Assembly: GCA_036490475.1 (NCBI GenBank)
Contig: DASXDT010000006.1
Location: 434,001-498,000 of the forward strand
Direction of reading: 5' to 3'
Length of the DNA: 64,000 bases
Source of the DNA: Candidatus Tumulicola sp.
GTDB taxonomy: Bacteria > Vulcanimicrobiota > Vulcanimicrobiia > Vulcanimicrobiales > Vulcanimicrobiaceae
A program made the translations under genes and the position numbers. Positions 10,420-17,534 of the stretch are shown here, one piece after another. The stretch's first letter is position 1, and the number at the start of each line of letters is the position of its first letter. The notes under the pieces are model-generated. The model searched no databases. It had not been told where the DNA came from and saw only the letters and a list, made by a program, of their open reading frames with translations.

Positions 10420-11108
10420 GGCGCTTCGCTTGTAAAATCCTCGACCGAACGGAGCGCCCCGAATGCGGCAGTCAAGTTGCTGCCGGAGATCGTTCGAAGC
10501 ACGTACTGCCATGCCGCGTTCGAGCCGGCACGCGTCTCGAGTAATCGACAGATCCAGACCGCGACCGGAACGAACACCACACCGGCGGCCACGTTCGCCA
10601 ATAGCCAGGTGCGGTCGAGCGTCGCCGATACATCGACGCCGAAAACGGCATGCAACCCGACGATCGTCAGCGGCACCCACGCTAGTAACGCGAAGGCGAA
10701 AACACCGCGTGCCGCTCGCAGACGCTGCAGCCGCAAACGTTCCAGTGCTGATTGCACGAGCGCAAGCGGACCGGCGTAGTCGATCGAACGCAGTGTCGCG
10801 ATTTGCATCCCGAGGTTGATCAACAGCAGGATCGCAAACACGTCCAGCACGACAGCCGATACGAACGCGACCGGTTCGTGCACCCACTCCGCGGCGGCAT
10901 TTCCGAGCCACGCGACCGTACAAATAGACAGTGCGAGCTCGGCCCAGAGTCCGGCTTGGAACCAGCGCAACGGTCCGCGAACTCCGTTACTGCTGAGCGC
11001 GTGCAATGCTCCGCGATCGACCACAACGATGCGGCCGTGGTCGCGATTCTGCTGCAACCAGCGCTCGAAAGCTCTCTCGAAACGTTCCTCCATGCGATCT
11101 CCGTTCAC
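10416..11108 (-). CDS. Membrane protein coupled to the ECF sigma factor
   Basis: The unrecognised 230-residue protein has a soluble N-terminus (NGDRMEERFERAFERWLQQN) and about four hydrophobic segments. These include WAELALSICTVAWLG, FVSAVVLDVFAILLLINLG, GVFAFALLAWVPLTIVGL and NVAAGVVFVPVAVWI. The GTG at 11108 overlaps the sigma-factor stop in a GTGA junction and has AGAGGA upstream; the longer open frame to 11483 only shadows the sigma gene. Position suggests a sensor or membrane anti-sigma role, but it lacks a recognisable zinc anti-sigma (HxxxCxxC) motif, so this is inference. Confidence 0.75.
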   Translation of the reverse strand: MNGDRMEERFERAFERWLQQNRDHGRIVVVDRGALHALSSNGVRGPLRWFQAGLWAELALSICTVAWLGNAAAEWVHEPVAFVSAVVLDVFAILLLINLGMQIATLRSIDYAGPLALVQSALERLRLQRLRAARGVFAFALLAWVPLTIVGLHAVFGVDVSATLDRTWLLANVAAGVVFVPVAVWICRLLETRAGSNAAWQYVLRTISGSNLTAAFGALRSVEDFTSEAP

Positions 11109-11614
11109 AAGCGATCCTCTCTTAGTTGTTGGTCGAAGCGGCATCGCAGCTCCGACTTTATGCGGTTGATTTTCGTCCCGACGTTGCTCTCGCTGATACC
11201 GAGCGTCTCGGCGATCTCGCGATGCGGATACCCCTCGAGGTAGAGCAGCATCAGGGCTTTTGGAAGCGGGTCGAGTTCTTCGATAAACGAACGCAGCGCC
11301 GTTAGGTCGTCCGCATTCTGCGGTTCTTGCTGCACCGCCGCATCGATGGCGGCATCGTCGAACAGCATGTGTTCGGTATGACGGCGCATGCGCCGGCGGT
11401 ACGAGATCGCGACGTTCAGCGCCACGCGGTACATCCACGTTGAGAACGCATACCGATCGTCGTAACGCTCGAACGAGCGCCATAACTGCGCGACGATCTC
11501 TTGACCGAGATCCTCGCGTTCGTTACGGTCGGCGCAGTACGAGCGGCAAACCGTATAGAGAATGCCGCGGTGCTCCTCGATCAGCCGCTCGAAGCGGCCC
11601 TGGCGTTCGTCCAT
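11105..11614 (-). CDS. RNA polymerase sigma factor, ECF (sigma-70 family)
   Basis: The 169-residue protein has region 2 (HRGILYTVCRSYCADRNERE, EDLGQEIVAQLW, FSTWMYRVALNVAISYRRR) and region 4 (LPKALMLLYLEGYPHREIAE, TLGISESNVGTKINRIKSEL), with no region 1 or 3. This is the ECF architecture. It directs RNA polymerase to a small regulon, often in response to envelope stress. It is translationally coupled to the downstream membrane protein, which may set its activity. The ATG start at 11614 leaves 33 bases to the ileS stop. Confidence 0.93.
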   Translation of the reverse strand: MDERQGRFERLIEEHRGILYTVCRSYCADRNEREDLGQEIVAQLWRSFERYDDRYAFSTWMYRVALNVAISYRRRMRRHTEHMLFDDAAIDAAVQQEPQNADDLTALRSFIEELDPLPKALMLLYLEGYPHREIAETLGISESNVGTKINRIKSELRCRFDQQLREDRL

Positions 11615-11647: not shown

Positions 11648-14410
11648 TCACAGATCGAGGCTGGAAAGTACCTCGGCGCAGTCGGAACACACCAGCGGAT
11701 TGGCCGGGTCCGAGCCGAGCCGCCGGAATTTCCAGCAGCGCGCGCACTTCTCACCCGAGGCGGCAAGTAATTCGAAGCTCTCCGTCTCGCCCTCGGATCG
11801 GAACAGTTCGACGTCCGAAACGACCAAGGCTTCGCGCAGATTGTCGCCCAGCGATGCAAGCCAGTCGAAGCTCTGAGCCGGCGCACCTAGCCGGACCCTG
11901 GCTTCGAAGTCACGCGGGGATTGCGATGCGGCGACGCGCGCTCGTAGCTCGCGCAGTTGCTGCCACCGCCCGACCGCGGGATCTGCGGGATCGCCGTCAC
12001 GCAGTTCGAGGTCGAACACGCTGACAGCATCGCCGTGCAACGCTTCGGGCAGCGACTGCCACGCTTCTTCGGCCGTAAACGACAGCACCGGCGCAAGAAC
12101 GACGAGCAACCGCTCGAGTACGTAGAGTAACGCCGACTGCGCGCTGCGCCGGCGCGCATCGTGGCGTGCCCGAGAATACAGCGGATCCTTGAGCGCATCG
12201 AAGTAGAGGCTCGACATGGCGCTTTCGAACTCGACGATTTGCAGGTACGCCTCATGCAACGCGAAGGCATCGTACGAGCGTCGGACGCCTCCGGCGAACG
12301 CGTCTGCGACCGCGCACGCCAAGCGGTCGAACGGCTCCATCGCATCGCGGGGAACGATCGCATCGTTCGGAAGATCGTTGACGTTCCCGAGCAAGAATCG
12401 GATTCGATTGCGCAGATTGCGATACACGCGACCGATTTGATCGACGACGTTGGGTCCGAAACGCACGTCGTCGACGAACTCCACCGAGGCCGTCCACAAG
12501 CGCAACACGTCGGCGCCCCAGCGTTCCATTGCCTCACGCGCGCCGATGCCGGTGCCGGTGGATTTGGACATCGCCCGGCCGTGCTCGTCATTGACCCAGC
12601 CGTGATTGATCACGCGTCGATAGGGCGCGCCACCCTCGATCGCAACGCCGGTAATCAGCGAACTGCGAAACCAGCCGCGGTATTGATCGGCACCTTCGAG
12701 CACGGCGTCGCTCGGCCAGTTCAAACCGTCACGCCCGAGCACGGCCAGGTGCGAGACGCCCGACTCGAACCAAATGTCGACGATGTTCCGTTCGAGTTCG
12801 AACTCGCCGCCCGCGCAATGCGGACAGGCAAAGCCGGCGGGAAGATAGGTTTCGACCGGATCGGTCCACCAGACGCTGGCGCCCGCTTCTTCGAACCGAT
12901 CCGCGGCGCGACGCGCGACGCCGGGATCGAGCACCGACTGCCCGCACGCGCGGCAGATCAGCGCGGGAATCGGCGTTCCCCACGTGCGTTGGCGCGAGAT
13001 ACACCATTCCGGATGCGTTTCGATCATTTGGCGTTGTCGCGTGCGTCCCCATTCGGGAACGTACGACACGTCTTCGATGGCCGCAACCGTCCGTTGGCGC
13101 AGCTCGTTGCGGTCCATCGAAATAAACCACTGTGCCGTGGCGCGGAAAATTACCGGATTGTGACAACGCCAACAATGCGGATACGAATGCTCGTACGCTT
13201 CGACGCTCCACAGTGCGCCGGTCGCGCGCAAATCCTCGACGATGCGGTCGTTCGCATCGAAGATAAACTCGCCCGCGTATTTGCCCGCGGCTTGCGTGAA
13301 ATGGCCGGCAGCGTCGACTGGATTGAGAATTGCTAGTCCGTAGCGACCGCCGGTTTCGAAGTCGTCGGCGCCGTGGCCGGGAGCGGTATGCACGGCACCC
13401 GTTCCGGTTTCGAGCTCGACGTACGCACCGAGGACGAGCAATGAATCGCGCTCCTCAAACGGATGCCGCACGGCGGCACGTTCGAGCTGCGATCCCTCGA
13501 CCGTCGCCAGCAGTTCGGCAGATGCGAATCGCTCGCCCAACGTGCGTTCGGCCAGCGCGGCAGCAAGGATCAACCGCTCGCCGTGTACGCGATACATGCC
13601 GTACGTAGCGTCGGCGCGCAACGCGATGGCGACGTTGGCCGGCAGCGTCCACGGCGTCGTCGTCCAAATAAGAATCGAAAGCGGAGCGTCGTCGTGCGGC
13701 GTACCGAAGCGTCGTTCCAGTTCGCGCACTTGTTCGCCGCGTGCTGGGAAACGCACGTAGATCGACGGCGACGTTTTGTTTTCGTACTCGATCTCGGCTT
13801 CGGCCAGCGCCGTTTCGTCGTGCACGCACCACAGCGTCGAACGCAAGCCTTTATAGATCTGCTCGCGCTCGGCGAGATCCGCCAGCACGCGTACGATCGT
13901 CGCTTCGTACGACGGCTCGATCGTGCGGTACGGCCGTTCCCATAAGCCGAAGTTGCCCATCCGGATGCGAATGTCGCGTTGCCGTTCGAACCAGTAGATG
14001 GCCCGCTCGCGGCACCGTTGGCGCAGTTCGACCGGATCGATCGCATGGAAATCCGTGATGCCGAGATGCTTTAGCGTTTCGAGTTCGATCGGCAGACCGT
14101 GCATGTCCCAGCCGGGAACGAACGCCGAGTACTTGCCTTCGAGCAACGCAACCTTGACGAACACGTCCTTGAGGACCATGTTGAAGAAACCGCCCATATG
14201 CGGCTCGTTATTGGCATACGGGGGACCGTCGTGCAGCGTCCACCGCGCGTTGGCCGCGTTGCGTTCGAGCCGCCGTTCGTACGAGCGTTGGCGCTCCCAC
14301 CAGGCAACGCGGTCGGGCTCGCGCTTGGGCAGCTCGGCCTTCATCGCAAAGTCGGTGCGGGGCAGATTTAACGTGTCGCGATAATCGCGGCGCGCTCCGG
14401 TATCGGTCAT
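11648..14410 (-). CDS. ileS: Isoleucyl-tRNA synthetase with a variant HIGH motif
   Basis: The 920-residue class I synthetase charges tRNA-Ile. It has the editing (CP1) domain with TTPWTLPAN (residues 251-259) and GTGAVHTAPGHGADD (336-350). WCISRQRTWGTPIP (469 onward), the KMSKS-type loop AMSKS (613-617) and a C-terminal zinc finger (CARCWKF...CSDC) follow. Domain order and the zinc finger indicate the common bacterial IleRS1 type. Oddly, the ATP-binding HIGH motif after GPPYANNEP reads HMGG (residues 71-74): the second histidine is glycine. This was checked against the DNA. It is the last gene of the DUF5693-csaB-ileS run. Confidence 0.95.
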   Translation of the reverse strand: MTDTGARRDYRDTLNLPRTDFAMKAELPKREPDRVAWWERQRSYERRLERNAANARWTLHDGPPYANNEPHMGGFFNMVLKDVFVKVALLEGKYSAFVPGWDMHGLPIELETLKHLGITDFHAIDPVELRQRCRERAIYWFERQRDIRIRMGNFGLWERPYRTIEPSYEATIVRVLADLAEREQIYKGLRSTLWCVHDETALAEAEIEYENKTSPSIYVRFPARGEQVRELERRFGTPHDDAPLSILIWTTTPWTLPANVAIALRADATYGMYRVHGERLILAAALAERTLGERFASAELLATVEGSQLERAAVRHPFEERDSLLVLGAYVELETGTGAVHTAPGHGADDFETGGRYGLAILNPVDAAGHFTQAAGKYAGEFIFDANDRIVEDLRATGALWSVEAYEHSYPHCWRCHNPVIFRATAQWFISMDRNELRQRTVAAIEDVSYVPEWGRTRQRQMIETHPEWCISRQRTWGTPIPALICRACGQSVLDPGVARRAADRFEEAGASVWWTDPVETYLPAGFACPHCAGGEFELERNIVDIWFESGVSHLAVLGRDGLNWPSDAVLEGADQYRGWFRSSLITGVAIEGGAPYRRVINHGWVNDEHGRAMSKSTGTGIGAREAMERWGADVLRLWTASVEFVDDVRFGPNVVDQIGRVYRNLRNRIRFLLGNVNDLPNDAIVPRDAMEPFDRLACAVADAFAGGVRRSYDAFALHEAYLQIVEFESAMSSLYFDALKDPLYSRARHDARRRSAQSALLYVLERLLVVLAPVLSFTAEEAWQSLPEALHGDAVSVFDLELRDGDPADPAVGRWQQLRELRARVAASQSPRDFEARVRLGAPAQSFDWLASLGDNLREALVVSDVELFRSEGETESFELLAASGEKCARCWKFRRLGSDPANPLVCSDCAEVLSSLDL

Positions 14411-14444: not shown

Positions 14445-15527
14445 TTACTCCCCGATTAAGTCGTCGAGCACGTCGAAGTTGCGCTCCGCCGCCGCCCGGA
14501 TCGCCGCGACATCACCGGCCAGGTGCTCGGAAATCGCGTCGTGCTCGGCGATCAGCCGGTCTACCAGCTCGTCGGCCGATGCCGGTTCGCGCCGGCGTCC
14601 CGGCTCCCACAGCGGTTCGAGTGGGTAGCGGAGATCGTCGCACAGCGCGTTGACCTTCGGATCGTAGGCCAGCGCCAAGAACGGCACGGCAAAGCGCGCA
14701 GCCAAAACGAGCGCGTGTAGCCGCATCCCGATCACCGCGCGCGAGCCTGCGATAATTGCGCCGGCTTTTTCCAACGAGCATTCCGGCAACAGCACCGGCG
14801 CGCTCGCACACTTGCGAATGATGTCCGTCGAAATTTCTGCGTCCGGCGCGCCGCCCAACGGAAGAAACGCGCTACGGATGCCGTGAACGCCCGCCAACCG
14901 ATCGACCGCGTGCGCGACGGTTTCGACCCCGTCGCGAAAGCCCGGCGACTTGCGAACGCTTATGACTGCATACTGGCCGCTATCGGGACCTAAGCCCTCA
15001 GCGCTCAGGTCGTGGGCCGGCGCCGCCGGATCGTACAGAAACACCGGATCGGCCGTGCGCTCCACCAAGGTGCGCGGGAGTAGCCGCTGGAGCAATCCAC
15101 GCGAGCGCTCGTCACGCACCGTCGCGCGCGAAACGCCGCTACAGAATTGCCGCACCAAGAACTCACCAAGACGATCCAACGGTCCGATCGACTGCGCGAA
15201 AATCATCGATTTCCGGCGCGCTCGTACGGCCTCACGAACGATTCCGGCATAATACAGCAAGCTGCGCGAGCTCGTAGCATTTTGTAACAGGCCGCCTCCT
15301 CCCGAGAGAACGACGTCGCACTCGCGGATCGCACGACGTACGTTTCGCCATTGTTCTCGCGGCGACGATCGTACGTCGAGTTGGCGAGCGGTCAACAGCG
15401 GCGTAGCCGACAAAACTTCGATATCGGCGTTTGGTACGCGTGCGCGGATGCGCTCTACGATGATTCGCAGCAGCGCCTCATCGCCCAGGTTGCCGAATCC
15501 GTAATAACCGGAGATCAGCAGGCGCAC
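14445..15527 (-). CDS. csaB: Polysaccharide pyruvyl transferase CsaB
   Basis: CsaB adds a ketal pyruvate to secondary cell-wall polysaccharide, creating the ligand for SLH-domain proteins. The 360-residue protein begins MRLLISGYYGFGNLGDEALL, the family signature. It has VLSGGGGLLQNATSSRSLLY, FAQSIGPL, and a C-terminal glycosyltransferase-like half with VIGMRLHALVLAARFAVPFLAL. Genes for a DUF5693-type membrane protein and CsaB are often neighbours, as here (three bases apart). In a diderm this would fit outer-membrane tethering through SLH porins, though no SLH protein is encoded in the window. Confidence 0.93.
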   Translation of the reverse strand: MRLLISGYYGFGNLGDEALLRIIVERIRARVPNADIEVLSATPLLTARQLDVRSSPREQWRNVRRAIRECDVVLSGGGGLLQNATSSRSLLYYAGIVREAVRARRKSMIFAQSIGPLDRLGEFLVRQFCSGVSRATVRDERSRGLLQRLLPRTLVERTADPVFLYDPAAPAHDLSAEGLGPDSGQYAVISVRKSPGFRDGVETVAHAVDRLAGVHGIRSAFLPLGGAPDAEISTDIIRKCASAPVLLPECSLEKAGAIIAGSRAVIGMRLHALVLAARFAVPFLALAYDPKVNALCDDLRYPLEPLWEPGRRREPASADELVDRLIAEHDAISEHLAGDVAAIRAAAERNFDVLDDLIGE

Positions 15528-15530
15528 TCG

Positions 15531-17534
15531 CTAGGTAAGAGTGGCTGGGCGCACAGCCATCTTTCGATATACGTACACGACGATCGAACCCACGATGGCG
15601 CCGATGATCAGCCCGTTGACGATCCGCAACAGCGAGATGGAAAGCGGCGTGTGCAGATGCGAGAACGTATCGATCACATCGCCGATTCCGACGCCCGCTC
15701 CGAGCGCGAGCAGCCAGCCGACGGCGCGCCGGTGTAGCGGTGTTAACGCCGCGATCAGCATCATACACGGGAAGCCAACCAAAAACTCTTTGAATCGCGG
15801 CCGGACCGACAGCACGTTCGTTAACACGTGACGCAGCGTCAGCTCGAACTGCGACGGCGAGATGTCGCTGTCGTTTCCGCTGCGCATGACTAGGAACGCG
15901 GCCCCTGCGACGACGACCAGCCCCGCCAAGAGTTGATACGCCAGCACCGGCGATGAAGACAGCTCTTTCAACCGGCGCCCGACGCCGAACCGCGGGTCGA
16001 ACGTATACATCAACAGCGCGATGAGTGGCGGAAGTGCAAGCACGAGTTTGACGCCGCGAAAGCGCTCGATCTCTTCCATCGCGAGTGGCGCACTCATCAG
16101 CCCGACGACGACCAGTGCGCCAAGAAGTGCGACGCCGGTGGCGGCCAACGTCCACCCCGAACAGCGCAACAGTTGGGTGCGCGTGTCGCGTGCCGGCTCT
16201 TCACGAAATGCGGGAGCGAGCACCGCGAACGCAGCGGTGGCGAACAACAGAGCTCCGGCGAGCGCCAGGACCGAGCGAATCAACAAATCGTGATGCGATA
16301 CGACGCCGCCCGCGTACGCGAGCACCGTTACGGCATAGGCGGCGATTGCCCACCGCAGACGGTACAAGCCGAACCACTCGAGCAGCAAGATGAAGATCGA
16401 CGGCACGGCGAGCGCTGCGACGGCGACGATGAGACGATTGTTTCCGTGGTACGGTGGAATCGGCGTCGCGCGGCCCAGGCGGTAGCCGCCCGATTTAAGC
16501 TGGTTCGCGATGGACGCGACGAAGTCGACGTTCGTTCGCTCGATCGACTTGTTTCCGTCGCGATGATCCCACGGACGCAAGTACACGACGCGCACGTTTC
16601 GCTCGCGCGCGCCCAACACGTAACGAGCGACGGCGACGTCAACTTTGATTTTGTCCAGCTCGGTTTTCGCGATGGCTTGTACGCGCACGGTGCGGCCGGG
16701 GATCAACTCGGCCAGGCCGTCGTTACCCTTTTGCACCGTCGCTTGATCGTAGGTTTCGATCGAGCCGAAATTAAACCGATGCTCTTTGAAAATTGCCGCC
16801 ATATCCTCGAGATGGTCGGGAAATCCCATGACTTGGTTGCGCAGCCCGAAGAAAATCAACGTCGATACTTTCGGATCGTAGCGCAATACCGCGTCGATTT
16901 CGGCGGACATTTGCGAACGTTCGAACCGTTCGTCGTTCTGTAGCCGCGGAATGACTAAGAGGCCGAGACGACGCGCGAGCAAGATCTCGTCGGTTGGTAT
17001 ACCCAACGAGGTGGTGTTGAAATAATCGATTTGCGTGCGCACTTCGATCAACCACGGCCGCGATGCTCGCAGCACGCGGACGCTGCGCGGAGCGAAGTGC
17101 AGACCCAACTGCAAGCGATATCGTTGATAGGTCAGTGCGTCATCGACCAACAGATACACCGCGCCGGGATCGATACGTCCGGACGCGACCATTCGCGCCA
17201 GCAACGGATCGCGGATGGGCGCAATTTGCGCCTGATTGCGCAACGACGCTCCCGTAAGAACTTGCGCCTTCCCGTCGTCGCCGACGTTCGCGCCGAGCTC
17301 TTCTGTCAGCGCGAGCGAGGTCAAACCGGCTCGCCGCAATGCGATCAAAAAGCCCGCAGGGTTATAATCATACGAACGCGCCAGCGCCGCGAAGTCTTGA
17401 TAGTCCATCGAGACCTCGACGCGTTTGGCACGATCTTCCGTCTGTAGACGAAACACCGCGACAGCCAAACAAGCAAGTAACCCGACCAGAAGCACGATTC
17501 CGGCATAGCGCGTACGCGTCGACACAAACGTCAC
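15531..17534 (-). CDS. DUF5693-like multi-pass membrane protein next to csaB
   Basis: The 667-residue protein has one N-terminal hydrophobic segment (GIVLLVGLLACLAVAVF). An extracytoplasmic domain of about 350 residues follows, with VYLRPWDHRDGNKSIERTN near its end. The C-terminal half carries about eight or nine hydrophobic segments. This layout, and the gene directly before csaB, match the DUF5693 family; its biochemical role is unknown. A part in cell-wall polysaccharide handling is inferred from the conserved neighbour. GTG at 17534 is the start. The upstream region contains the terminator-bounded RNA candidate. Confidence 0.75.
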   Translation of the reverse strand: MTFVSTRTRYAGIVLLVGLLACLAVAVFRLQTEDRAKRVEVSMDYQDFAALARSYDYNPAGFLIALRRAGLTSLALTEELGANVGDDGKAQVLTGASLRNQAQIAPIRDPLLARMVASGRIDPGAVYLLVDDALTYQRYRLQLGLHFAPRSVRVLRASRPWLIEVRTQIDYFNTTSLGIPTDEILLARRLGLLVIPRLQNDERFERSQMSAEIDAVLRYDPKVSTLIFFGLRNQVMGFPDHLEDMAAIFKEHRFNFGSIETYDQATVQKGNDGLAELIPGRTVRVQAIAKTELDKIKVDVAVARYVLGARERNVRVVYLRPWDHRDGNKSIERTNVDFVASIANQLKSGGYRLGRATPIPPYHGNNRLIVAVAALAVPSIFILLLEWFGLYRLRWAIAAYAVTVLAYAGGVVSHHDLLIRSVLALAGALLFATAAFAVLAPAFREEPARDTRTQLLRCSGWTLAATGVALLGALVVVGLMSAPLAMEEIERFRGVKLVLALPPLIALLMYTFDPRFGVGRRLKELSSSPVLAYQLLAGLVVVAGAAFLVMRSGNDSDISPSQFELTLRHVLTNVLSVRPRFKEFLVGFPCMMLIAALTPLHRRAVGWLLALGAGVGIGDVIDTFSHLHTPLSISLLRIVNGLIIGAIVGSIVVYVYRKMAVRPATLT

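Follow-up and report, generated by a model that had tools for sequence, protein, structure and literature searches.

The fourth position of the HIGH motif is not strictly His among class I aminoacyl-tRNA synthetases other than isoleucyl-tRNA synthetase (IleRS), a likeness to the enzyme described here: PROSITE PS00178 permits H, N, T or G there, and variants of GluRS and TrpRS carry non-His residues. In the pre-transition-state complex of LeuRS, the alpha-phosphate of ATP is bound by the fourth His of HMGH and the beta-phosphate by its first His (PMC9424281). According to a review of class I structures, TyrRS activity drops when either His is mutated (PMC5919687). Brkic et al. found positions 1 and 3 to be the most conserved, with mutation of the first His costing about 1000-fold in class I enzymes, and described HXGH in all IleRS1, where variation of the motif is not tolerated; their non-canonical motif is the G/AXHH swap (PMC10485003). 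Work linking altered HIGH motifs to mupirocin concerns positions 1 and 3 of IleRS2, and the one statement on position 4 is a mention of His changed to Gln under laboratory selection (PMC10485003).

The window, a stretch of 64,000 nucleotides of Candidatus Tumulicola sp., carries an ileS gene with an altered HIGH motif. Its features are as follows.

11648..14410, minus strand: ileS, IleRS1-type isoleucyl-tRNA synthetase of 920 aa (from the open frame, TIGR00392, PF00133 and structure-based relatives)
14207..14209, minus strand: Asn68; Gly in all His74-bearing relatives sampled (from the alignment)
14189..14200, minus strand: HMGG, residues 71-74, in place of HIGH, with Gly74 for the second His (from codons and relatives)
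14183..14185, minus strand: Phe76; Leu or Val in His74-bearing family members (from the alignment)
12596..12598, minus strand: Trp605; Phe in most IleRS1 outside the clade (from the alignment)
12560..12574, minus strand: AMSKS, residues 613-617, for KMSKS, retaining the second Lys (616) but not the first (from the alignment)

The 920-aa frame has no internal stops, and its product scored 743.7 bits against TIGR00392, the ileS equivalog model (cut-off 621.4), and also matched PF00133. The nearest solved structures are the IleRS1 enzymes of P. megaterium (8C9E) and S. aureus (1FFY). Both align with it from end to end, including the C-terminal zinc motif CARCWKF...CSDC, and the protein thus has the IleRS1 architecture; the IleRS2 structure 8C8U and models of MupA and MupB gave much weaker matches. 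The window enzyme shares with these two IleRS1 the domain order, the editing domain, the zinc motif and the first His and Gly of HIGH, but differs from them at the fourth HIGH position (Gly) and the first Lys of KMSKS (Ala) and in having Asn68 and Trp605. The sequence-only reading had described everything outside the HIGH motif as intact, which is correct for the zinc motif but overlooks the missing first Lys in AMSKS.

The host genome comprises 3.32 Mb on 7 contigs and is 96% complete. The sequence-only reading had proposed looking for a second ileS; this 96%-complete assembly yielded no further IleRS1 or IleRS2, the next matches lying at E near 1e-16, where the same query gives 1e-72 to 1e-104 for IleRS2-like proteins of related genomes. 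Immediately upstream of ileS, the same strand carries a CsaB-like polysaccharide pyruvyl transferase (14445-15527, minus strand), followed by the frame of a large membrane protein (15531-17534, minus strand), and an ECF-sigma-like frame (11105-11614) lies downstream. All three were assigned by eye.

The minus-strand codons from 14200 to 14189 read CAT ATG GGC GGT, giving H71, M72, G73 and G74 directly after HDGPPYANNEP. The first His and Gly73 are kept, and the literal HXGH signature is absent. A second species of the same genus (G001, 75% amino acid identity) has HMGG too, as do two species of the sister genus (G010 and G097, 72-73%), in each case with partly different codons. Together with the window these form one clade of four species in two genera (SH-aLRT 94), and G017, of the same family, has HMGG of a second, independent origin. 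The replacement of the second His by Gly, and its suspected presence throughout a lineage, are therefore borne out. Pairwise dN/dS among the four genes of the clade is 0.11-0.20, and the window gene is accordingly under purifying selection. A pseudogene is ruled out by the open frame and dN/dS, in agreement with the earlier view that the gene is not broken. As the sole IleRS found, and one under purifying selection, the enzyme would be expected to charge tRNA-Ile with isoleucine.

Of 149 genomes surveyed in the phylum, 100 gave a readable IleRS1 motif, and its fourth position is His in 68, Thr in 16, Gln in 10, Gly in 5 and Ser in 1. All ten Gln enzymes belong to families other than the window's, and Gln is fixed there. 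A quick maximum-likelihood tree of this single gene, covering 72 members of the family and order and leaving out the motif region, requires nine changes of the fourth residue, or eight when scored as His versus non-His. The window's family itself requires about eight switches between His and Thr, Gly or Ser, and close relatives repeatedly differ. The choice of enzyme also varies within the phylum: in genomes G041-G054 (same class, another family) and in G133-G148 every match was IleRS2-like (about 30% identity, frames of about 1050-1100 aa), indicating that IleRS1 and IleRS2 have been swapped for each other. One genome of the same family (G005, 96% complete) gave no IleRS1 or IleRS2 match at E <= 1e-60, which is probably due to an assembly gap.

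Variation at this position extends to other phyla. We scanned about 85,000 species genomes with the pattern GPPY-[AST]-N-xxx-H-x-G plus a next codon whose middle base is C or G, which returned at least 118 loci. All matches listed were HxGT, and among them were Alphaproteobacteria, sulfate-reducer-like bacteria, Clostridia, Acidobacteria, Synergistota, Coriobacteriia, WOR-3 and others. Even samples gave 134 His and 8 Thr (8/142 Thr) in the proteobacterial phylum of Bradyrhizobium, and 46 His and 40 Thr (40/86 Thr) in the Clostridia-containing phylum of Ruminiclostridium; 150 listed genomes of the Acidobacteria-containing phylum gave 71 His, 65 Thr and 14 Gln. These surveys used DNA patterns that require the motif's first His and its Gly, and are therefore silent on changes at those two positions. 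No Gly at the fourth position was found outside the window's family among the enzymes in these surveys and the matches listed. HxGT IleRS1 (Bradyrhizobium, Pelagibacteraceae, Clostridia, Acidobacteria and others) resemble the window enzyme in lacking the second HIGH His; they differ in having a Thr hydroxyl where the window has no side chain, and most have KMSKS and Gly68.

Based on these genomes, bacterial IleRS1 is labile at the fourth HIGH position, and Gly is a rare form at a naturally changeable position. The sequence-only reading had treated HMGG as exceptional; this view is not supported, given the mixture of His and Thr in two other phyla, Gln in other families of the phylum, and flips among close relatives. 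The statement that HXGH is universal in IleRS1, taken literally, fails at position 4 in a large share of bacteria. Thr and Gln far outnumber Gly, which may thus come at a cost or depend on something undetected.

We therefore consider it very probable that the window gene is a working housekeeping IleRS1 with a rare natural Gly at an evolutionarily labile fourth HIGH position. Catalysis would rest on H71, Gly73, Lys616 of AMSKS and backbone contacts, and the fourth side chain, through its contact with the ATP alpha-phosphate, would contribute modestly. Thr, Ser or Gln may partly replace the fourth His, and Gly may manage without a side chain. The loss of the bulky His seems to ease a steric or conformational need for Gly68 in the loop just before the motif. 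Brkic et al. expected His-to-Gln at the fourth position to lower catalysis (PMC10485003), which counts against this explanation. No activity data for any HxGT, HxGQ or HxGG IleRS1 were found in the literature accessible to search.

The changes around the motif raise the question of compensation. The sequence-only reading had supposed that the lineage uses a compensated active site. In a specific form of this idea, Asn68, Pro70, Phe76 or other residues would assume the role of the lost His, and HMGG would work only in this background. The only changes found to correlate with residue 74 are at residue 68 and weakly at residues 70 and 76. Within the GPPYANNEP that the sequence-only reading had called conserved, residue 68, the second N of YANN, replaces a Gly invariant in His-bearing relatives. 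Within the family, residue 68 is Gly in 51/51 His-bearing members and Asn in 8/21 non-His members (window included), and Phe76 is found in 6/21 non-His and 0/51 His-bearing members; both changes thus occur there only with a non-His residue 74, as compensation would predict. In two other phyla as well, each enzyme found to lack Gly68 carries Thr or Gln as the fourth residue. When 398 genomes were searched for residues other than Gly68, with a pattern that omitted codons starting with G, four cases came up, all Asn68 with Thr, and in the Acidobacteria-containing phylum Ala68 or Ser68 is found in 25 enzymes, all with Thr or Gln, vs 0/71 with His (Fisher p 1.3e-8, kinship ignored). Cases of non-Gly68 among the at least 118 scan loci were not counted as evidence, as that scan could return non-His enzymes only.

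However, most non-His enzymes lack these changes: 13/21 in the family keep Gly68, and G017 combines HMGG with Gly68 and Leu76. The family offers too few events for a test on the tree (the sign test was not significant), no alignment column of the family away from the motif tracked residue 74 convincingly when every column was inspected, and relaxed constraint accounts for the same pattern. Compensation specific to this background is thus unlikely, and it is not required where H71 and Gly73 are kept and the covarying changes are optional. Because most non-His enzymes keep Gly68, we infer instead that Gly68 is a demand imposed by the second His and vanishing with it, not a compensation needed for activity. 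We tentatively propose, as a possibility that we would not yet favor, that the second HIGH His and Gly68 form an epistatic pair in IleRS1, Gly68 being obligatory with His and free without it. The His-less enzyme would then explore Thr, Gln, Ser and finally Gly, these states would tune ATP and inhibitor binding, and the signature would be HxG[HTQGS].

Adaptation to inhibitors is a further candidate explanation. The KMSKS loop is altered well beyond the HMGG clade: wherever the site is covered, members of the phylum's IleRS1 clade have Ala, Pro, Thr or Ser for its first Lys, and its third place is often His (AMHKS, TMHKS). Residue 605, eight residues upstream of KMSKS, is Trp in this clade and Met in two members, and a missing first Lys and Trp605-type features are also found among HxGT enzymes elsewhere. 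A putative adaptation to mupirocin-like IleRS inhibitors would hold that the fourth-position change, the missing Lys and Trp605 lower binding. Consistent with this, some laboratory-selected resistant S. aureus have His-to-Gln at the fourth position, among other mutations, and mupirocin bound to IleRS1 touches the backbone of the KMSKS loop and stacks against a Phe (PMC10485003). Other families of the phylum have Gln fixed at the fourth position, and both Trp605 and the loss of the Lys extend across the clade. On the other hand, the change is scattered over phyla, and the published mechanism of hyper-resistance requires His at position 3, which the window enzyme lacks. The G/AXHH IleRS2 of Brkic et al. 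2023 are likewise natural IleRS with an altered HIGH (PMC10485003), but in these positions 1 and 3 are swapped and position 4 is His, whereas in the window's IleRS1 only position 4 is changed. Hyper-resistance goes with Gly or Ala at position 1 and His at position 3 in an IleRS2 background; the window has His at 1 and Gly at 3 in an IleRS1. We regard this adaptation as quite improbable.

A general habit of losing the HIGH His among the class I enzymes of this genome was considered and rejected: HLGH, HVGH, HIGH and HLGH stand at its Val-, Leu-, Met- and Cys-like loci. Their second signature is KMSKS or KMGKS, and the retention of both signatures marks the drift as peculiar to IleRS.

An IleRS paralogue that is inactive or has taken on another role, tRNA-Ile being charged by a different synthetase, has a plausible precedent in genome G055 of the same phylum, where an IleRS1 copy lies in the same genome as an IleRS2. 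It is nevertheless very improbable for the window, where no other IleRS was found in the 96%-complete assembly, the first His, Gly73 and Lys616 are kept, and dN/dS is low. The G055 gene (G055:C112, L048 / L266:4588-7389) is full-length and open, has LPVH for HxGH and no recognizable KMSKS, and adjoins lspA and lgt homologues; the IleRS2 is located at G055:C49, and both come from one MAG that is 62% complete. It looks like an ancestral ileS whose catalytic motifs were lost after the gain of IleRS2. Finally, a base-calling or assembly error, which would account for a lone deviation and was one of the conditions under which the sequence-only reading would have fallen, has a negligible chance of having made HMGG and is ruled out by the relatives, which share Gly74 under partly different codons as well as three more neighboring changes. 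The other such condition, a canonical motif in the relatives with this assembly alone deviating, likewise came out in favor of the observation.

In conclusion, HMGG in this genome is of moderate interest, chiefly for having pointed to how widely position 4 is labile and to the link of that position to residue 68. HIGH is taught as a hallmark of class I synthetases, and its fourth position varies naturally in very many genomes; the window's Gly74, with no side chain at that position, is the extreme case. This variation helps to tell apart the roles of the two HIGH histidines and supplies natural variants for testing. It also bears on intrinsic sensitivity to IleRS inhibitors, for which the natural HxGQ and HxGT enzymes are an interesting test set.
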